This document shows, piece by piece, positions 806-31,304 of a DNA stretch of 64,000 nt. This stretch comes from Kangiella sp. TOML190 (GTDB lineage: Bacteria; Pseudomonadota; Gammaproteobacteria; Enterobacterales; Kangiellaceae). Below the pieces are notes generated by a model, which saw nothing but the letters and a program-made list of their open reading frames with translations, did no database searches and was not told where the DNA came from. The stretch covers positions 930,001-994,000 of the forward strand of contig NZ_BQYL01000001.1 in NCBI RefSeq assembly GCF_023706045.1, given 5' to 3'. Numbering within the stretch: position 1 is the first letter of the stretch; every line of letters begins with the position of its first letter. The position numbers and the translations under genes were made by a program.

Positions 806-1807
806 ATGACAGTTAAAGTAGCAATTAATGGTTATGGTCGTATTGGCCGCACAGCACTTCGCGCAATTTATGAGCATGGCTATCGTGATCGCATTCAAGT
901 GGTTGCGATTAACTCTTCGCACCCAGCGGAAACTACCGTTCACTTAACCAAATACGATACTACTCATGGCCGCTTTAATGCTGATGTTGCTACTGATGGC
1001 GAGCACATGATTGTGAATGGCGATAAGATCAAATTGTACGCTGAGCGTAATCCTGAGTTAATCCCTTGGGGTGATCAAGATGTAGACGTGGTATTCGAAT
1101 GTACTGGTGTCTTCAAAGATCAAGCGGGCGCTTCAAAGCACTTTAAAGGTGGTGCGAAAAAGGTATTGATTTCAGCGCCAGGCGCAGCAGACGTTGACGC
1201 CACGGTCGTATTCGGCGTGAATGATGACATTTTAAAACCAGAACACCGCGTAGTCTCGAACGCTTCTTGCACCACAAACTGTTTAGCGCCTTTAGCCAAA
1301 GTATTAAACGATACAGTTGGTATCAAGTCAGGTTTAGTAAATACCATTCATGCTTACACTAATGATCAAAAATTAATTGATAATCAGCACAAAGATTTGC
1401 GTCGTGCGCGTGCAGCGGCACAAAGTATTATCCCAACTAAGACAGGTGCTGCTAAAGCAGTTGGTTTAGTGCTCCCGGAACTAAATGGTGTGATGGATGG
1501 TTTCGCAATGCGTGTTCCAACCATTAACGTATCTTGTGTGGATTTAACCTTTGAAGCAGGTCGCGATACTTCTGCTGAAGAAATTAATGAGATTGTTAAA
1601 AAAGCAGCAGACGAGCACGTGCTTTGTTATAACGATGAGCCGTTGGTTTCAATCGACTTTAACCATAGCCCAGCATCATCAACATTTGACGCAGGTCAAA
1701 CTCGTGTAATGAATGGTAACTTGGTGAAAGTGGTGACCTGGTACGATAACGAGTGGGGTTTCTCGAACCGAATGCTCGACGTTGCCATCAAGATGATGTC
1801 TGTTTAG
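806..1807 (+). CDS. gap: Glyceraldehyde-3-phosphate dehydrogenase, class I (GapB-like cofactor site)
   Basis: Converts glyceraldehyde-3-phosphate to 1,3-bisphosphoglycerate with NAD(P), or the reverse in gluconeogenesis. The 333 residues are full length. The Rossmann motif GYGRIG is at 9-14, the catalytic cysteine is Cys155 in SNASCTTNC, and the partner is His182 in IHAYTND. The residue after VVAIN is Ser37, where strictly NAD-dependent enzymes carry Asp. Bacillus GapB, an NADP-preferring gluconeogenic enzyme, has Ala there and shares the YTNDQ...[12 protein letters not shown] stretch. Erythrose-4-phosphate dehydrogenase (Epd) is a relative often found at this position, but the P-rich [11 protein letters not shown] segment fits GAPDH. 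The enzyme class is sure; the cofactor preference is inference. Confidence 0.93.
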
Positions 1808-1940
1808 TGGTCTTTTTTGACTTATGCTTTGTTGCGATTAGTTTTCTGTTTGCTAGTGTACTGATGTACACGACGCTGCTCATAAAATTAATCGCGCCTT
1901 GCCTAAGTGCAAAAAATCCCTACTAAACATAGTGCAAATT

Positions 1941-1966
1941 AAAAGGCTTTTTTCGGAAAGTCTTTT
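1941..1966 (+). terminator. Possible intrinsic terminator after gap
   Basis: The arms AAAAGGCTTT and AAAGTCTTTT can pair over ten bases with one wobble around a six-base loop. The stem is A/T rich, so it is a weak terminator at best. It lies between gap and pgk. Confidence 0.4.
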
Positions 1967-1985
1967 GCGTTTTAAAATATGGCTT

Positions 1986-2020
1986 CGTCATTGCGAGAAG
2001 CGTAGCGACGATGCAATCTC
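1986..2020. repeat. REP-like dispersed repeat (CGTCATTGCGAG type)
   Basis: The stretch begins CGTCATTGCGAG, continues through AAGCGTAGCGACG and ends GCAATCTC. This matches a widespread class of bacterial intergenic repeats with self-complementary cores. A second, shorter copy starts CGTCATTGCGAG near 63004. It sits just upstream of pgk and probably lies in the transcribed leader. Confidence 0.65.
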
Positions 2021-2051
2021 TTAAAGTTAGAACTAACTCGAAGAAAAGATT

Positions 2052-3236
2052 ATGAATGTTTTACGAATGGCGGATTTGGATTTACAAGGTAAGCGAGTGC
2101 TTATTCGTGAAGATCTGAACGTTCCGGTAAAAGATGGCAAAATTACCAGCGATGTGCGTATTCAAGCGTCGATCCCGACCATTAAATTGGCCTTAAAAAA
2201 AGGCGCGATAGTAATGGTGATGTCGCACCGTGGTCGCCCGTCCGAAGGGGTTTTAACGGAAAAAGACTCGATGAAAATGGTTGCTGATTATTTGAATGAG
2301 CAGCTAGATGCGCCAGTTCGATTGGTCACTGAATATTTAAATGGCGTGGAACTTGAGCAGGGCGAAGTCGTCGTTTTCGAGAACGTGCGTTGCAATGTAG
2401 GTGAAAAAGCCAATGACGATCGCTTAGCAAAAATGTACGCCGATTTGTGCGATGTATTTGTGCATGACGCTTTCGGCACTGCGCACCGTGCGCAAGCCTC
2501 GACTCATGGTGTAGCTAAGTTTGCGCCTGTTGCTTGTGCGGGTTTATTGCTCGCAGGCGAGCTGGAAGCTTTAGGTAAAGCTTTGGACAATCCTGCAAGA
2601 CCAATGGTGGCGATCGTTGGCGGCTCAAAAGTTTCGACTAAACTCACGGTGTTAGAAAAGTTATCGGGTATTGTTGACCAGCTGATTGTTGGTGGTGGTA
2701 TTGCTAATACTTTTATTGCGGCTGAAGGCCATGCGGTGGGTAAATCTTTATATGAGGCAGATTTAATTCCAGAAGCCAAACGACTGATCGAGCAAGCTAA
2801 AGCCAATGGTGGCGAGATTCCGGTGCCAGTAGATGTGGTAACGGGTAAAGAGTTTTCTGAAAGTGCAGCAGCGGAGGCTAAGTCAGTGTCAGAGGTTGCC
2901 GCTGACGATATGATTTTCGATATTGGTGAACAATCTGCTGAGCATCTGGCAAATATTTTGGCGCAAGCGAAAACCATTGTGTGGAATGGCCCAGTAGGGG
3001 TGTTTGAGTTTGATCAATTTGGTCAAGGCACTGAAATCATTTCTCGAGCTATTGCGGCAAGCGATGCCTTTTCGATTGCTGGTGGCGGTGATACGGTGGC
3101 GGCGGTTGATAAATACGGCATTAAGGATCAAGTCTCGTATATTTCAACAGGCGGCGGTGCTTTTTTGGAGTTCTTGGAAGGCAAAGAATTACCGGCCGTG
3201 GCTATCTTAGAAGCAAGAGCCAAAGAATTAGTTTAA
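2052..3236 (+). CDS. pgk: Phosphoglycerate kinase
   Basis: Transfers phosphate between 1,3-bisphosphoglycerate and ADP in glycolysis, reversibly in gluconeogenesis; cytosolic monomer. The 394 residues match the usual bacterial length. Visible family signatures are [11 protein letters not shown] near residues 15-25, SHRGRP near 59-64 (substrate-binding basic patch), AFGTAHRA near 140, and the C-terminal nucleotide-binding loop with GGGDTVAAV near 345. It follows gap by 244 bases, including a REP-like element and a weak hairpin, so it may have its own promoter. fba follows 38 bases later and is probably co-transcribed. Confidence 0.98.
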
Positions 3237-3274
3237 TAGGATTAGGGTAAAGGCGGAATTTAAAGGTAAAAATT

Positions 3275-4339
3275 ATGGCATTAATTACATTAAGACAATT
3301 GTTAGATCACGCAGCTGAAAATGCTTATGGTATCCCAGCGTTTAACGTGAATAATTTGGAGCAGATGCGTGCAGTTATGCAGGCGGCGGATGAAACTGAT
3401 TCGCCAGTAATCGTTCAGGCTTCTGCTGGTGCTCGTAAATACGCAGGTTCAAACTTCTTGCGCCACTTAATTTTGGCGGCGACTGAAGAGTTTCCGCATA
3501 TCCCAGTTTGTATGCACCAAGATCACGGTGCTTCGCCGGCGATTTGTCAGCAGTCGATCCAATTAGGTTTTACTTCGGTGATGATGGATGGTTCTTTAGA
3601 AGAGGACATGAAAACCCCTGCGTCTTACGAGTACAATTCGCGCGTGACTAAATTAGCCACCGATATGGCGCACGCCTGCGGTGTTTCGGTTGAGGGTGAA
3701 TTGGGTTGTTTAGGCTCGCTTGAAACGGGGATGGCTGGCGAAGAAGATGGCTCGGGTGCGGAAGGTGTTTTAACCGAAGATCAACTGTTGACCGATCCGG
3801 AAGAAGCAGCTCAGTTTGTTAAAGACACTGGAGTTGATGCTTTGGCGATTGCGATTGGTACTTCTCACGGTGCTTATAAATTTACTCGTCCGCCAACAGG
3901 TGACGTATTATCGATTCAGCGTATCAAAGAAATTCATCAGCGCATCCCAGATACTCATTTGGTGATGCACGGATCTTCTTCAGTTCCACAAGATTGGTTG
4001 GCAGTAATCAATGAATACGGCGGCGACTTGGGCGAGACTTATGGCGTGCCAGTGGAAGAGATTCAAGAGGGCATCAAGTACGGCGTGCGTAAAGTGAATA
4101 TTGATACTGACTTACGCTTAGCGGCTACTGGCGCAGTTCGTAAATTCTTAAAGCATAATCCAAAAGAATTTGATCCGCGCAAATATAACAAGGTTGCGCA
4201 AGATGCGATGCAAGCGATTTGCAAAGCGCGCTACGAATCCTTTGGAACGGCGGGTAACGCTGCTAAAATCAAGCCGATTAATATGGAACAAATGGCGATT
4301 GATTATAAAGCAGGAAAGTTGGATCCGCGGGTGAACTAA
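3275..4339 (+). CDS. fba: Fructose-bisphosphate aldolase, class II
   Basis: Reversibly cleaves fructose-1,6-bisphosphate to dihydroxyacetone phosphate and glyceraldehyde-3-phosphate using a bound divalent metal. The 354 residues fit the long class II (Calvin-type) subfamily. The HQDHG motif at 81-85 supplies the catalytic Asp and first metal-ligand His. Further ligands lie in [10 protein letters not shown] and VMHGSSS, and VNIDTDLR binds phosphate. It is the last gene of the gap-pgk-fba series and is followed closely by a strong intrinsic terminator. Confidence 0.98.
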
Positions 4340-6731: not shown

Positions 6732-8195
6732 ATGGGGATCGTCACGCTCGTTGGCTTGATTTTCATTTTCGTAATTTTTATTACTTTCAGCTGGAAAGAT
6801 AATCGCTTTTCTTGGCTATTCTTAGGTTTTGTGGTCTTCTTTGGTCTGTTGTTTTGGCTGTTCTACGATCTCAACCGGTTAACACCAAAAGCCATCTTTT
6901 ATGAGATCTTGTTGGCGATTATTGTCAGTATCGTGGCTGCCCTTTTTTGGTACAGCTACGATAAGCGCAAACGCAGTCAATTCAAAATTAGTTTTGCAAA
7001 AGTCTTTTCCTTCTATAAGTATGACTATCGAGAGAGTTGGCTCGGTTTTAATTCGGCTTTGGACTTTGCTCATCGCGAAAAAGATTTTTATGCCAAATCG
7101 ATCCAAGCGTTGGCCAGTATCATCGACAGTTCTGGCGGAAAACTTTGGTATCAAGTTTCCAATCGTTTTAGTTTTATTGACCACTGGGATTCACCGCTAG
7201 TATCAAATAGTGATTTCAAATTACCCGATAGCCTTATCGAGTTTATGCAAAAAACCAATTGGGTAGTAGATCTGAATGAGTTTCGAATTACACCGGAAGT
7301 GTACCGCGGTTTGTCACTGGATTTAGAACAACACAAGTTTCAAGATTTGCATATCTTTGTTCCTTTGCGTCGTGAAAATGAATTGGTAGGGATTGTCGGG
7401 CTGAAAGTTTCTGATGAGCAGCAAAACTTAAATTGGGAAGATCACGATTTGTTGAAAGCGGCTGGTCAGCAAATGGCCAGCTACATCGAATTATTCGAAG
7501 CTACTTCAAGACTTTATGAGCAGCGTGAGTTGGAAGCTTTTAATCGCGTTTCAACCTTTGTGGTGCACGATATTAAAAATGTCTCGGCGCAGCTAGAATT
7601 AATTAGCCATAACGCAGAAAAATTCAAAAATAATCCAGAGTTTATCGAAGATACCTTTGCTACTGTGGCCAGCGCCAATCAACGCTTAACAAGAATGTTG
7701 CAGGATTTACGGCGTAAAGAAATACCCAAGGTGGAAAGTGCAGTTTGCTATTTGGCATCGCTCAAGGCCAAAGTTGCAGAAGTTAATCCGCTGATAAAGA
7801 TTGAAGGTGGCTCTGAAGCGGTATTGTTAATTGGGCTTGAAGATCAGCTGTGCAATATTATTTTGCATTTGGATGAAAATGCTCGCCAAGCGGTTGCTGC
7901 TGACAAAGCAGCTAATGCCAAAGTTGAGCACTGGATTGAGATTAAGGACAAAGATCTCTATTGGCATATTCGTGATAATGGGGTGGGTATGAGCGAAGAG
8001 TTTATGCGAGATCACCTTTTTAAACCTTTCCAGACCACCAAAGGTAATGCTGGAATGGGGATCGGGGTATATCAATGTCGACATTTGCTCCGAAGCTTTG
8101 AGGGTGATTTAATAATACGTAGCAAGCTGGGTGAGGGCACCCATTGCACTGCCATTATGGCTATAACAACAGGGGATGAGGATGACTCAAAATAA
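6732..8195 (+). CDS. PrsK-like membrane histidine kinase, short N terminus
   Basis: Sensor kinase of 487 residues. Three membrane helices lie at about 3-20, 27-47 and 55-75, followed by a GAF-like domain (about 120-255). The phosphoacceptor is His279 in FVVHDIKN, with the N box DENA around 381-384, DNGVGM at 415-420, FKPF near 430 and GMGIG at 441-445. The stretch from FNRVSTFVVHD through the helix after it is characteristic of the PEP-CTERM system kinase PrsK. Known PrsK proteins are much longer, with a large multi-helix N-terminal region that is reduced here to three helices. Its partner regulator overlaps the 3' end. The signal sensed is unknown. Confidence 0.88.
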   Translation: MGIVTLVGLIFIFVIFITFSWKDNRFSWLFLGFVVFFGLLFWLFYDLNRLTPKAIFYEILLAIIVSIVAALFWYSYDKRKRSQFKISFAKVFSFYKYDYRESWLGFNSALDFAHREKDFYAKSIQALASIIDSSGGKLWYQVSNRFSFIDHWDSPLVSNSDFKLPDSLIEFMQKTNWVVDLNEFRITPEVYRGLSLDLEQHKFQDLHIFVPLRRENELVGIVGLKVSDEQQNLNWEDHDLLKAAGQQMASYIELFEATSRLYEQRELEAFNRVSTFVVHDIKNVSAQLELISHNAEKFKNNPEFIEDTFATVASANQRLTRMLQDLRRKEIPKVESAVCYLASLKAKVAEVNPLIKIEGGSEAVLLIGLEDQLCNIILHLDENARQAVAADKAANAKVEHWIEIKDKDLYWHIRDNGVGMSEEFMRDHLFKPFQTTKGNAGMGIGVYQCRHLLRSFEGDLIIRSKLGEGTHCTAIMAITTGDEDDSK

Positions 8196-9534
8196 ATTGG
8201 ATTTATTAGTTATTGAAGATGATGCAGGTTTGCAAAAACAGCTCAAATGGTCATTCGATGAATATAATGTGGTGGTAGCAAATAACCACCAAGAAGCGAT
8301 CGTTGAGCTAAGACGTTTTCAGCCTAAAGTAGTCACGCTGGATTTAGGCCTGCCGCCCGATCCGGCTAATGCCAGTGTTGGTTTAGCGTTATTGGATGAA
8401 ATTCTAAAGTTGGCGCCAACGACCAAGGTTATTGTGGTCACTGGCAACGATCAGCGTGAGGTAGCGCTGAGTGCGGTAGAAAAAGGTGCCTACGACTATT
8501 ATCAAAAGCCCATTCAGGTCGAAGAGTTATCCTTGATTGTAAAGCGTGCTTTTGAATTGGCGGAACTCGAAGAAGATAACCGTAACTTATTTAAACGTCA
8601 GACCAGCAGTTTTCATGGCATCATCGCTAGCAGCCCAGAGATGTTGTCAGTTTGCCAAAAGGTTGAAAAAGTTGCCCCGACTAATGTCAGTGTCTTGCTG
8701 TATGGTGATAGCGGTACTGGTAAGGAATTATTGGCTCGCGCGATTCATGAAATCAGTCCGCGCAAAGAGCAAAAGATGGTGGCTATTAATTGTGCCGCAA
8801 TCCCTGATAATTTATTAGAGAGTGAGCTTTTTGGTTATGAAGCGGGCGCTTTTACTGGCGCCAATAAGCAAACCATTGGCAAAATTGAAAGCGCCAATGG
8901 CGGAACTCTATTTTTAGATGAAATCGGCGATATGCCCTTGTCGCTACAGGCGAAATTATTGCGCTTTTTACAGGAGCGCCAAATTGAGCGAGTGGGTGGC
9001 CGAGATTCAATCGCGGTGGATGTGAGGATTGTTGCGGCAACCCATCAACCGTTAACCGAGTTGGTGGAAAATGGGGACTTTAGAGAAGACTTATTTTACC
9101 GCTTAAGTGAGATTGGTTTGGAGATCCCTTCGCTCGCTAAACGCAATGGCGATGTGGTTTTGATTGGCCGTTCTTTGCTGGATAAATATGGCAAGCAGTA
9201 TGGTCGTAATTTGCGTGGTTTTACTTCTGATGCGGTGCACGCAATGGAATCTTATAGTTGGCCGGGCAATGTGCGCGAGCTGGAGAATAAGATTAAGTCT
9301 GCGGTGGTGATGTCAGAAAATCCGCAAATTAGTGCGCACGATTTACAAATTGGCGAAGATCAGCTGGAAGAGATGCCGCTTAATTTACGCCAGGTTCGTG
9401 AGGCAGCTGAATCAAAAGCCATTCAAAGAGCGATTGTTTTATCCAATGGCAATATTTCCAATGCTTCGAAGTTGTTAGGAGTAACTCGACCAACCCTATA
9501 CAGCTTGATGGATAAGTATGGTATTCAGCATTAG
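8182..9534 (+). CDS. PrsR-like sigma54-dependent response regulator
   Basis: NtrC-family activator and likely phosphorylation partner of the preceding kinase. The receiver domain has Asp54 in LDLGLPPD and Lys109 in QKPI. The AAA+ domain has Walker A GDSGTGKE at 175-182 and the sigma54-contacting loop GAFTGA at 222-227. A Fis-type helix-turn-helix ends the protein (NISNASKLLGVTRPTLY). The DLGLPPDPANASVGLALLDE pattern is typical of PrsR. I place the start at the second ATG (8182) because AGGGG has proper spacing to it; the first ATG at 8176 abuts that site. The gene overlaps the kinase, indicating coupling. Confidence 0.9.
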   Translation: MTQNKLDLLVIEDDAGLQKQLKWSFDEYNVVVANNHQEAIVELRRFQPKVVTLDLGLPPDPANASVGLALLDEILKLAPTTKVIVVTGNDQREVALSAVEKGAYDYYQKPIQVEELSLIVKRAFELAELEEDNRNLFKRQTSSFHGIIASSPEMLSVCQKVEKVAPTNVSVLLYGDSGTGKELLARAIHEISPRKEQKMVAINCAAIPDNLLESELFGYEAGAFTGANKQTIGKIESANGGTLFLDEIGDMPLSLQAKLLRFLQERQIERVGGRDSIAVDVRIVAATHQPLTELVENGDFREDLFYRLSEIGLEIPSLAKRNGDVVLIGRSLLDKYGKQYGRNLRGFTSDAVHAMESYSWPGNVRELENKIKSAVVMSENPQISAHDLQIGEDQLEEMPLNLRQVREAAESKAIQRAIVLSNGNISNASKLLGVTRPTLYSLMDKYGIQH

Positions 9535-10000
9535 GTTGCTGCTATTGCTAATAGGCTTGTGCACCATTACGGCTTGTGGTGGTGATTATGAAGCTGAGTT
9601 GCTAGCAGAGCGTTGGTCAAAACACGACTGGAGTCAAAATCAGCCCGAGCTGTGGTTAGATATTAATAATGACGGTGAACAAGAAAGGGCGCTGGTCGGT
9701 TTTGGAACGCGCACCGTGTTAGTGGCGGTATTGATAGAGGATGAAGTCGAGCAGGTGGATTTTGTCGAGTTTTTTATTAATAAACCCAGTCAACAGAATG
9801 CGCTCTGCTCTGCAAAAGGCCAATTGGCAATCGAAGCGCAGGATGATTCTTTGGTCGAGCAGTTTGGAGAGAACCCTGAAGGCTTTAAGTCTTGTCAAAA
9901 CTGTCAGGGATTAGTGTTAAAGGATTTTGCTGGGACTTGCTCTCCCTTTCACATCTATTGGGATCACAAAAATCAAATGCTCAGTTGGTGGCGCAACTAA
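9518..10000 (+). CDS. Putative lipoprotein of the PrsK/PrsR operon
   Basis: A 160-residue protein with a lipoprotein signal: a hydrophobic segment (IRLLLLLIGLCTIT) then the lipobox ending ITAC, with the lipidated Cys near residue 20. The mature part is acidic, contains a short DINNDGEQE stretch recalling EF-like acidic loops, and has a C-x2-C pair (SCQNC) that may form a disulfide. No family is recognised. It overlaps the PrsR-like gene by 17 bases and so belongs to the same transcript. It converges on rpiA with nine bases between them. Function unknown; a periplasmic partner of the sensor is only a guess. Confidence 0.75.
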   Translation: MVFSIRLLLLLIGLCTITACGGDYEAELLAERWSKHDWSQNQPELWLDINNDGEQERALVGFGTRTVLVAVLIEDEVEQVDFVEFFINKPSQQNALCSAKGQLAIEAQDDSLVEQFGENPEGFKSCQNCQGLVLKDFAGTCSPFHIYWDHKNQMLSWWRN

Positions 10001-10009
10001 TCTCGGTGG

Positions 10010-10681
10010 TTAAACCGCACTGGCTCGTTTTATGGTTTCCACACCGTCTTCTTTTCCCAACAATAACACGTCTGCTGAGCGTTCGGCAAAGAGTCCATTA
10101 GTTACCACTCCAACGATACCATTGAGCAGATTTTCTAGTTTCATCGGCTCATTAATTTCTAAGCCATGAAGGTCCAAAATAACGTTACCATTATCGGTGG
10201 TAAAGCCTGCCCGATAGACTGGATCGCCACCAAGCTTGACGATTTCGCGTGCCACATAACTGCGAGCCATTGGAATTACTTCTACTGGCAGCGGAAACTC
10301 TCCTAATCTGCGAACCAGCTTGGATTCATCGGCAATACAGACAAAGGTATCGGCAACTGCGGCGATAATTTTTTCGCGGGTTAAAGCGCCGCCACCACCC
10401 TTAATCAAGGCCAATAGATGGTTGGATTCATCGGCGCCGTCAACATACACTGGAATTTCGGAGACTTGGTTTAGGTCAAACACTTCGATGTCATGCGATT
10501 CAAGCCGTTTGGTAGAAGCTTCCGAGCTGGAAACGGCCCCTTTAATTTTGTGTTTTATCTTGGCAAGCTCATCAATAAAATAATTCACCGTGGAGCCAGT
10601 ACCTACACCAACTATGGCATCTTCGACCACATAATCCATCGCGGCCTTACCAACTAAAGCTTTTAGTTCGTCTTGATTCAT
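10010..10681 (-). CDS. rpiA: Ribose-5-phosphate isomerase A
   Basis: Interconverts ribose-5-phosphate and ribulose-5-phosphate in the pentose phosphate pathway. The 223 residues are the usual length. Signatures are GVGTGST near 25-31 (phosphate loop), DGADE (catalytic acid) and [11 protein letters not shown] with the active-site lysine. It lies 86 bases downstream of ygfA on the same strand and may be in the same transcript as zapA, 6S RNA and ygfA. Confidence 0.97.
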
Positions 10682-28995: not shown

Positions 28996-29226
28996 ATGGC
29001 ACAGACTAATCAAGATCTAACTAATCTTAAAAATTTAATAGTTCGGTTGGGTGAAGATCCTGAGTTATTACAAGCGTATGTGAAAAGTCCCGAGGCGGTA
29101 TTGTTAGGCGCTGATGTTCCAAAAGAGCAGGTTGAGGTAGTGCTATCGGGTGATCAAAAAGCAATAAAGTCACTGTTAGACGATAACCATTTAGCAATAA
29201 CCATCATTCACTTACCAAAGTGTTAA
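28996..29226 (+). CDS. Split borosin RiPP precursor peptide (SonA-like)
   Basis: A 76-residue peptide that appears to be the substrate of the next gene's methyltransferase. Residues about 10-61 form the borosin-binding-like helical leader: LGEDPELLQAYVKSPEAVL and VPKEQVEVVLSGDQKAIKSL recall Shewanella SonA (a helical LGQD...Y...NPEAV...GL..EQ...V..GD pattern). The remaining 62-76 (LDDNHLAITIIHLPKC) are a short, branched hydrophobic tail, the likely core for backbone N-methylation; SonA also ends in a hydrophobic segment followed by His. A good GGGAG ribosome site precedes ATG. A strong terminator follows before the enzyme gene. The terminal Cys is unusual. Methylated positions are unknown. 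Confidence 0.87.
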   Translation: MAQTNQDLTNLKNLIVRLGEDPELLQAYVKSPEAVLLGADVPKEQVEVVLSGDQKAIKSLLDDNHLAITIIHLPKC

Positions 29227-29245
29227 CATTGTTGTCCAAGTAATA

Positions 29246-29269
29246 AGAGCACCTAGGTGCTCTTTTTTT
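29246..29269 (+). terminator. Strong terminator/attenuator between precursor and methyltransferase
   Basis: Perfect 9-bp stem AGAGCACCT/AGGTGCTCT with almost no loop spacer, followed by seven T. It lies between the precursor stop and the methyltransferase start, so only read-through would express the enzyme. Confidence 0.9.
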
Positions 29270-29288
29270 ATGCTAATAGAGGGTATAT

Positions 29289-30089
29289 ATGGATTCAAAT
29301 CGCGGAAGCCTAACCATAGTCAGTACCGGCATGCTTATTGGGGGCGATATTTCGGTTCGTTGCCAAGAAATCATTAAGCAGGCGGATCAGGTATTCAGTT
29401 TGATGTCTTCAGCCGTGGGCGACAGTTGGCTTGATAAACTTAACCCAAACCATCAGAGTTTGCAGTATTTATATGGTAAGACTAAGCATCGCATGGACAG
29501 CTATGAAGAAATGGTTGAGGTTATGATGCAGGCAGTGCGTCAAGGGAAAAAAGTGTGTGGTGCTTTTTACGGTCACGCAGGGGTTTTTGCTTGGGCGCCC
29601 CATGAGGCGGTTAGGGTCGCGCGAAAAGAAGGCTTCGAAGCTAACATGCTGCCAGGAATTTCAGCGGATTTGGCGCTGTATGCCGATGTAGGTATAGACC
29701 CTGCAACACAAGGCGTGCAAGCTTTTGAAGCAACACAGCTTTTATTTTATAAACACAATATTAATCCTGCGGGATATGTGATTTTGTGGCAAATTGGTCT
29801 GATAGGGGAGTATACAGCTCGAAGTTTTGATTTCCCTGAAAAAGGCCCTGCGATTTTAGTCGAACACCTCAGTCAGTGGTATCCACTGGATCATTCAATA
29901 ATTTTGTATGAATGTGCGGTGTTACCAATACTCGAAACGCGCATCGAAAGAATGGAACTAAAAGATCTGGTTAATGCAGAGCTAAATTTGATAACAACCA
30001 TGGTGTTAGAGCCCTACGGTGAATTAGAAGCGAATGATGAAATTTTAAATAAGTTTAATATTAGTGAGGCTTTGATAGCCAAACGATAA
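29289..30089 (+). CDS. Split borosin alpha-N-methyltransferase (SonM-like, tetrapyrrole-methylase fold)
   Basis: SAM-dependent enzyme of 266 residues that N-methylates peptide backbone amides of a separate precursor. It has the tetrapyrrole (corrin/porphyrin) methylase fold: STGMLIGGDIS near 12-22, FYGHAGVFAW near 93-102 and the SAM loop LPGISADLALYADVGIDP near 121-138. The borosin-specific catalytic region is Y62-x5-R68-x3-Y72 (YGKTKHRMDSYEEM), matching the Tyr/Arg/Tyr set of OphMA and SonM. ILWQIGLIGEYT and VEHLSQWYPLDH also match SonM. AGAGGG precedes ATG. Residue matches are from memory of SonM; an alignment would settle them. Confidence 0.88.
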   Translation: MDSNRGSLTIVSTGMLIGGDISVRCQEIIKQADQVFSLMSSAVGDSWLDKLNPNHQSLQYLYGKTKHRMDSYEEMVEVMMQAVRQGKKVCGAFYGHAGVFAWAPHEAVRVARKEGFEANMLPGISADLALYADVGIDPATQGVQAFEATQLLFYKHNINPAGYVILWQIGLIGEYTARSFDFPEKGPAILVEHLSQWYPLDHSIILYECAVLPILETRIERMELKDLVNAELNLITTMVLEPYGELEANDEILNKFNISEALIAKR

Positions 30090-30100
30090 ATTGATAGAAG

Positions 30101-30117
30101 AGCACAAATTTTGTGCT
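30101..30117. repeat. 17-base palindrome upstream of the TPR gene
   Basis: AGCACAAA-T-TTTGTGCT, 11 bases before the TPR gene start and 11 after the methyltransferase stop. It lacks a T run on the plus strand, so it reads as an operator or an mRNA hairpin near the ribosome site rather than a terminator. Confidence 0.6.
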
Positions 30118-30128
30118 AAAATGGAATT

Positions 30129-31304
30129 ATGAAGAAGTTCTTCGCCAGTGTTGTTTTATTTCTTGTTTGCGCGTCTGTTGTTGCCCAAACTGAAGAAAGC
30201 TCGCATCAAGAAAGCTCGTATCAGGAAAAGTTAGATTATATTTATTCGATCAGGCTTAATGATATTAATGAAGCCAAACGCCAGCTAGCTGAGTTAGCTC
30301 AAGAGTTGAACAATCTATCAAAACCGCAACGAACACAGTTTTATAATCTGCGAGCCCACTCGGAGCTTATAAGAGGTAATATCCAAGAGTCATTAGGTTA
30401 TTCAAGAAAAGCAGAATCATTAGCGAATAAGTATGATTTTGTGGCTAGGGCAAAATCGCTACAAGTTGTTGCTTTGGCTTCAAGCGGTAACTATCAAAAA
30501 AGTTTTATAGAGCTCTATGAAATCTTAGACAGGATAGATGAAATTGAGTCGGCCGAGCTTAAGCAAAGTATCTTACAAAATGCGCTATCGCAGCATACCA
30601 ATGCAGGCATTTTTGATAAGTCGCAAGAGTTAATCAGAATGATTCTTGCGCAGGCAAAACGTAATAATAGTGATTACTACAATTGTTTTGGTTTCCTAGA
30701 GTTAGCCTTGCTCAATTTAACCTTGGGTAATCACAAGCAAGTGCAGTTTGATATTGATAGCGCGACCACCGAATGCCGGAAGGCTCAAAATAATATGGCT
30801 TACCTGACGCTCGATGTATACAGAGCCAAGCTTTCGAATGAAACAGGCAAAACTGCAGAGGCCAAGCGAATTTATGAGCAACAATATCCGAAGCTAAAGA
30901 CTTTTGGTTGGAAGTCAATGTTGGTTGATGCACAAATTGCTATGGCAGAAATTTATTTAGAGCTCAAAGAGCTCGAGAAAATAGAGCCGTTAGCATTGGC
31001 AGCTTATAATTATGCTAAGGAAGTAAATAATATTAGGGAAGTTCGTGACAGTAGCCTAGTTTTATCACAGTACTTTACCGAGATTAAGGATGATGACAAG
31101 GCAGGTTTTTATAAAAATAAATACCTAGAAGCTGCTAATGAATTAAATACCCAATTGCAAAAAAAACGTATTGCTTATTATCAAGCAATGAACTATCGAG
31201 CAGTAAAAAAGCAGTCAGAGAAAGAAGAAGACTTGGTTAACCTAGAATCGGAAAAAAAAAATAACCTTCCTGTTAGGGGCGAATTTAAGTCTCCCCACCC
31301 CTAA
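30129..31304 (+). CDS. Exported TPR-repeat protein, probably truncated sensor
   Basis: A 391-residue protein with a signal peptide (FFASVVLFLVCASVVAQ) and helical TPR-like repeats from about 35 to 330. The architecture matches the periplasmic sensor part of TPR-GGDEF or TPR-kinase membrane proteins, which continue with a coiled coil, a membrane helix and an enzymatic domain. Here the coiled coil (RAVKKQSEKEEDLVNLESEKKN, given by its ends) stops at a run of ten A, followed by 11 unrelated residues. No continuation is found in the other frames downstream, so the effector domain is gone. It follows the borosin genes with 39 bases between; a role in that locus is unproven. Confidence 0.72.
   Translation: MKKFFASVVLFLVCASVVAQTEESSHQESSYQEKLDYIYSIRLNDINEAKRQLAELAQELNNLSKPQRTQFYNLRAHSELIRGNIQESLGYSRKAESLANKYDFVARAKSLQVVALASSGNYQKSFIELYEILDRIDEIESAELKQSILQNALSQHTNAGIFDKSQELIRMILAQAKRNNSDYYNCFGFLELALLNLTLGNHKQVQFDIDSATTECRKAQNNMAYLTLDVYRAKLSNETGKTAEAKRIYEQQYPKLKTFGWKSMLVDAQIAMAEIYLELKELEKIEPLALAAYNYAKEVNNIREVRDSSLVLSQYFTEIKDDDKAGFYKNKYLEAANELNTQLQKKRIAYYQAMNYRAVKKQSEKEEDLVNLESEKKNNLPVRGEFKSPHP

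Follow-up and report, generated by a model that had tools for sequence, protein, structure and literature searches.

A type IV split borosin gene pair in Kangiella and its TPR-repeat partner: a possible backbone-methylated signal and receptor

The window, a stretch of 64,000 nucleotides from the genome of Kangiella sp. TOML190, contains a small peptide gene and a methyltransferase gene whose sequences support their assignment as a type IV split borosin pair, with the methylation itself being inferred. That the two belong to this family is nearly certain and, taken alone, the pair is a new member of the known type IV split borosins. A third gene encodes a TPR-repeat protein that is predicted to be exported and, as far as can be judged from sequence, the association of this TPR family with borosin methyltransferases is near-exclusive in both directions. 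On balance, there is an even chance that the locus combines a type IV split borosin pair with the receptor domain cognate to it. A broader proposal is put forward more tentatively, and is held with somewhat less than even confidence. According to this proposal, gammaproteobacterial split borosins may be backbone-methylated signals of an unrecognized peptide-signaling system that has a dedicated periplasmic TPR receptor, the output of which is interchangeable (diguanylate cyclase, histidine kinase, or none). Paralogous modules of this system would be present in Kangiella-like bacteria, with the receptor of one of them turned into a free periplasmic TPR set of up to four copies per locus. If the proposal is true, backbone-methylated peptides would form a class of signals in bacteria that is linked to the control of c-di-GMP and of kinases. 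With a third gene that is found nearly always, and nearly only, beside borosin genes, the function of the peptide becomes open to direct test. The features of the locus are presented in Table 1.

Table 1. Features of the borosin locus in window coordinates
Feature	Position	Strand	Description
Precursor gene	28996..29226	+	76 aa; helical leader resembling that of SonA (borosin binding domain), then a short, hydrophobic C-terminus
Likely core, residues 66-76 (LAITIIHLPKC)	29191..29223	+	Inferred from SonA alignment; methylated residues undetermined
Hairpin followed by T run	29245..29264	+	Between precursor and enzyme genes; possible partial terminator
Backbone N-methyltransferase gene	29289..30089	+	266 aa; SonM-like; Y62/R68/Y72
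TPR-repeat protein gene	30129..31304	+	391 aa; predicted exported; without output domain

A type IV split borosin may be considered in terms of a SonM-like enzyme that carries a Tyr/Arg/Tyr catalytic set, a precursor encoded by a separate ORF, and a leader with the fold of a borosin binding domain. In a PDB sequence search, the enzyme of the window matched SonM (7ltc_A) with an E-value of 2e-70, followed by the fused fungal borosin enzymes MroMA, dbOphM and OphA (1e-43 to 1e-35); the sole further match up to an E-value of 0.001 was a cobalt-precorrin methylase (8e-4). The enzyme and SonM are identical at 122 of 257 positions. A preliminary description of this DNA had named Y62, R68 and Y72 as catalytic, and the alignment it called for places them with Y58, R67 and Y71 of SonM, satisfying the first criterion. 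Identical counterparts are also present for Y93, F99, E146, W166, Q167, E173 and F179 of SonM, and are absent for R68, L176 and Q178.

The proposal of a SonA/SonM-like pair was likewise borne out on the precursor side, where residues 6–66 match SonA (E = 6.7e-8) and a profile built from 27 relatives matches it as well (E = 1.4e-22). The predicted model of the precursor is of moderate confidence (mean pLDDT = 77.6). Its best eight PDB matches were all SonA chains (rmsd 1.1–1.5 Å), in keeping with the helical leader that had been proposed, but the Foldseek E-values were weak (0.08–0.44). The borosin binding domain criterion is met on sequence, with a fold match that is weak by E-value. From the SonA alignment, the C-terminal LAITIIHLPKC is the likely core. 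The 76- and 266-residue ORFs that had been described were both found at these lengths, and since they are separate, the architecture is split; the enzyme and core are not joined in a single polypeptide as in the fused borosins (types I–III).

The layout of the three genes is operon-like, with the TPR gene starting 39 bases 3' of the end of the enzyme gene. A count of hairpins followed by a T run was not above chance (1 found vs a mean of 2.0 in shuffles). An inverted repeat, AGCACAAATTTTGTGCT, is present at 30101–30117 of the window, immediately 5' of the TPR gene. Its arms resemble those of the hairpin in Table 1, and it may serve as an operator or form another hairpin. The preliminary description saw no other pathway gene; this stands with respect to transporters and proteases, as none was seen adjoining the locus in the window, and does not stand with respect to the TPR gene, which belongs to the locus.

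The genome of the window is a single contig of 2.45 Mb in which the locus is flanked by gcvP and mutH/rppH. Of 20 genomes searched in the genus, 16 have a borosin locus next to gcvP; mutH was seen on the other flank in 15 of these 16, the remaining one being at a contig end. With a position shared by most of these genomes, the locus is more than a chance arrangement. All 20 genomes searched contain a borosin methyltransferase, and 17 have at least two matches.

The TPR protein of the window consists of a hydrophobic N-terminus and TPR repeats. Export is predicted from a simple hydrophobicity test, not from experiment. The predicted model is a TPR superhelix (pLDDT = 92.7), as is required of an RRNPP receptor. 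A structural search was led by LGN-peptide complexes, followed by the pheromone receptors Rap-Phr and NprR-NprX (Foldseek E = 9e-6 to 1.6e-4, TM-scores of about 0.4–0.6). As many TPR domains bind peptides and TPR folds bind many things, this likeness is merely suggestive. Two cysteines that are invariant in the family, C186 and C216, are located on neighboring helices of the predicted structure (182–199 and 202–219); a disulfide in an oxidizing periplasm is an inference. A search of the window's genome with the TPR protein returned no match but itself. At other loci of the same site (site 1), its relatives adjoin the borosin genes in one to four copies.

To establish how general the association is, the methyltransferase was searched for across the class (matches in 10 of 369 genomes), the order (37 of 148) and the phylum (15 of 398). 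These sets and that of the genus overlap, and loci within one genus are not independent. Neighborhoods were examined in groups of 45 and then 40, with 91 methyltransferase genes including that of the window (L004 was omitted as a duplicate of L048, and the methyltransferases of G186 and G543 were not included). A TPR-family ORF is found within 3 kb of 84 of the 91 genes, on the same strand in 83 of these cases, and at 13 loci the two ORFs overlap or are separated by fewer than 20 bases. Counted by hand, the linkage holds in 19 of 24 genera. No TPR partner was found within 3 kb of the divergent enzymes L086–L090, L176, or L061, the last of which is at a contig end and was counted as a miss. A SonA-like precursor could be recognized by profile within 3 kb of 56 of the 91 methyltransferases. 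At the other loci, the second module of this genome among them, the precursor is at best assigned by position, with suitably placed small ORFs in several. The seven enzymes from a Shewanella-like genus, which are 66–77% identical to SonM, are all accompanied by a precursor and a TPR partner; at one of these loci the GGDEF part is on a separate ORF.

Some of the loci without a TPR sensor differ in other ways. The divergent methyltransferases of L087 (8462–11846) and L088 (3734–7173) are located beside an MFS transporter and a 449–469-aa protein family for which the one member searched had no NCBIfam or Pfam match. In L176 (G421:C14, 7362–8831, minus strand), the methyltransferase adjoins an ORF that resembles a precursor, in which a borosin leader precedes ten counted AIIKGY-like units; it looks like a multi-core borosin. 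From these sensor-less enzymes, their MFS neighbors, and the multi-unit precursor, the family probably includes pathways with secreted products.

The linkage was also examined from the side of the receptor. In the 148 genomes of the order, with at most six candidates scored per genome, 42 of 46 full-length hits to the receptor family are within 3 kb of a methyltransferase, a full-length hit being one listed as starting at or before profile position 70 and reaching at least position 350. The four that are unlinked to any methyltransferase all carry the cysteine pair of the subfamily; three are in genomes with a methyltransferase elsewhere and one is in a genome where none was found. When scored with a TPR profile made only from the genus, 43 of the 47 linked proteins taken from other genera surpassed every one of 22 GGDEF proteins without linkage, and the cysteine pair is present in 36 of the 47 as compared to none of the 22. 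A TPR region was recognizable in 15 of these 22 controls. Among linked proteins, every short form (34/34) and most long forms (57/71) have the pair. On the linkage in both directions and the subfamily profile and cysteine results, a chance adjacency of the TPR gene was rejected.

In three genomes, receptor-family TPR-GGDEF genes occupy one shared place (L207, L210 and L211, each at about 1447–3276) next to an ABC-transporter ATPase-like gene and far from the methyltransferase of the genome. These are possibly extra receptors.

The partners differ in what follows the TPR domain. Among the linked partners, GGDEF output domains were identified in 35 of 47 and HisKA in 11 of 47; a second set gave 22 of 24 with GGDEF and 2 of 24 with kinases. 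A further 34 linked partners are short and contain only TPR. Nearly all short partners (33/34) and most long ones (65/71) have a hydrophobic N-terminus, and a second hydrophobic segment is present in every long partner (71/71) and in no short one (0/34). In linked partners elsewhere, a membrane diguanylate cyclase or histidine kinase is predicted to have the TPR domain as its input on the periplasmic side. In a quick tree of the enzymes, the kinase label requires at least four changes on well-supported branches. In the same tree, a single supported group holds 17 of the TPR-only genes of the genus, and an eighteenth with this label (L156) looks like a GGDEF gene that was split in two. Since the predicted exported TPR domain is constant while the output changes, it is the likeliest part to meet the peptide.

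Away from site 1, the borosin genes of the genus adjoin a protein of 572–614 aa in which this TPR domain is joined to a membrane segment and a GGDEF domain. The genome of the window has a second split borosin module (G000:C1, about 513844–516649; L046 = G000:C1:507000–525000, 6845–10119, minus strand) composed of a methyltransferase, a 79-aa ORF, an intact TPR-GGDEF protein, and a GNAT acetyltransferase gene that overlaps the methyltransferase gene. The 79-aa ORF has an acidic tail at its end, after NIYAILMPAEDDEDD. It was assigned as the precursor by position because, in this genome, the precursor of the window is the only one that the profile detects.

Between the window and its closest relative, identity is 80% for the enzyme, 44% for the precursor, 49% for the TPR protein and 90% for GcvP. 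A relative with an enzyme that is 80% identical carries the label uncultured Kangiella. A joint divergence of precursor and receptor that is faster than that of the enzyme fits this pair of loci and fails across 105 locus pairs (15 site-1 loci, L060 omitted), where the median identities are 54% for the precursor, 53% for the enzyme, 28% for the TPR protein and 84% for GcvP. Since the precursor and enzyme diverge at a similar rate, a simple signature of co-divergence between precursor and receptor is lacking.

A TPR partner that is usual beside borosin genes, and often fused to a signaling domain, suggests that the peptide is a signal. In the pathway envisaged, the methyltransferase would grip the helical leader of the precursor and N-methylate backbone amides within the hydrophobic C-terminal LAITIIHL. 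A housekeeping protease would release the short methylated core, which, with no dedicated transporter, would get to the periplasm or the medium and be bound by the periplasmic TPR superhelix, the last step being inferred from the linkage. Given that the TPR domain is the input of a cyclase or kinase in most related loci, the peptide would set the c-di-GMP level or kinase output through such receptors. The receptor of the window may have lost its membrane segment and output domain, persisting as a free periplasmic TPR protein that would buffer the peptide, carry it, or compete for it; without an output domain, its role at this locus may be one of buffering or carriage. At this locus, methylation, release, export, binding, and c-di-GMP or kinase control are all inferences.

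The alternative that survives best, while still judged unlikely, is that of an ordinary split borosin with a product that acts extracellularly as an antibiotic, metal ligand, or otherwise. The TPR sensor would then regulate the pathway or answer another cue without binding the peptide. No receptor binding is known, and the sensor-less L087, L088 and L176, with their MFS transporter or multi-core precursor, are what would be expected for secreted products. The locus of the window, however, has no transporter or protease, and an ordinary pathway does not account readily for a two-way linkage that is near-exclusive or for a predicted exported TPR part that is kept while the output part varies. 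Less probable again is that the TPR protein assists the pathway from the periplasm, as a chaperone or carrier of the modified precursor or as a scaffold for its processing. While this would suit the site-1 TPR protein of the genus, with its one to four copies and no output domain, the fusion of the same domain to a GGDEF or kinase output at other loci points to sensing. There is little to recommend a third possibility, that the methylated precursor is never cleaved or exported and, as an intracellular protein, regulates the cyclase or kinase output domain. A folded leader is kept in the short precursors and no protease or transporter gene is linked at this locus, but the predicted exported TPR domain is the sole part common to all partners, and the 34 site-1 partners of the genus (34/34) are without any cytoplasmic domain. 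Finally, that the enzyme is a tetrapyrrole or cobalamin methylase beside an unrelated small ORF can be dismissed. In its favor are a Pfam match (TP_methylase) and 11 weak NCBIfam matches to such enzymes; against it, all 11 NCBIfam matches fall far below the equivalog cut-off (for example 25.7 vs 259.65 bits), the match to SonM is strong, and the small ORF is SonA-like.

Among known systems, the closest is the type IV split borosin SonM/SonA of Shewanella oneidensis, for which two methylations and leader binding have been demonstrated (PMC8429565). The pair in the window shares with it an enzyme that is separate from the precursor, a helical leader, the catalytic Tyr/Arg/Tyr set, and identical counterparts of the lock residues F99, E146, W166, Q167 and E173. 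It differs in its precursor and core sequences, as seen in a 27-member alignment. GGDEF, TPR and sensor are not mentioned in the text of the SonM/SonA article (PMC8429565). In another article, a GGDEF domain is defined in the legend of Figure 1, which shows borosin types by architecture. Part of the association, GGDEF in or next to some borosin, is therefore already in print; the sections and passages of that article that were accessible contain no mention of TPR, diguanylate, c-di-GMP or quorum and no receptor (PMC11395268). This legend was the only instance of borosin and GGDEF together in an open paper, and no open paper was found with both borosin and tetratricopeptide; the surveys of Imani 2022, Cho 2022 and Lee 2024 may report the TPR or GGDEF neighbor. 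Given the legend and possible neighbor data in the surveys, it is uncertain whether the link between borosins and a TPR receptor is new to print. The legend and the precursor count of 56/91 make the broader proposal slightly less likely.

A second comparison is provided by rcbAB of Vibrio vulnificus. A TPR protein and a TPR-GGDEF protein jointly act on c-di-GMP, and the cyclase is repressed by the TPR domain (PMC12282931). The pairing of a TPR protein with a TPR-GGDEF protein is alike; in contrast, both rcbAB proteins are predicted to be cytoplasmic and the word methyltransferase is absent from the text (PMC12282931). With the RRNPP systems Rap-Phr and NprR-NprX, the locus shares a TPR superhelix, a similar predicted fold, and an adjoining small peptide gene. 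The RRNPP receptors are cytoplasmic. In contrast, export is predicted for the TPR protein of the window, the relatives of which have a GGDEF or kinase output.
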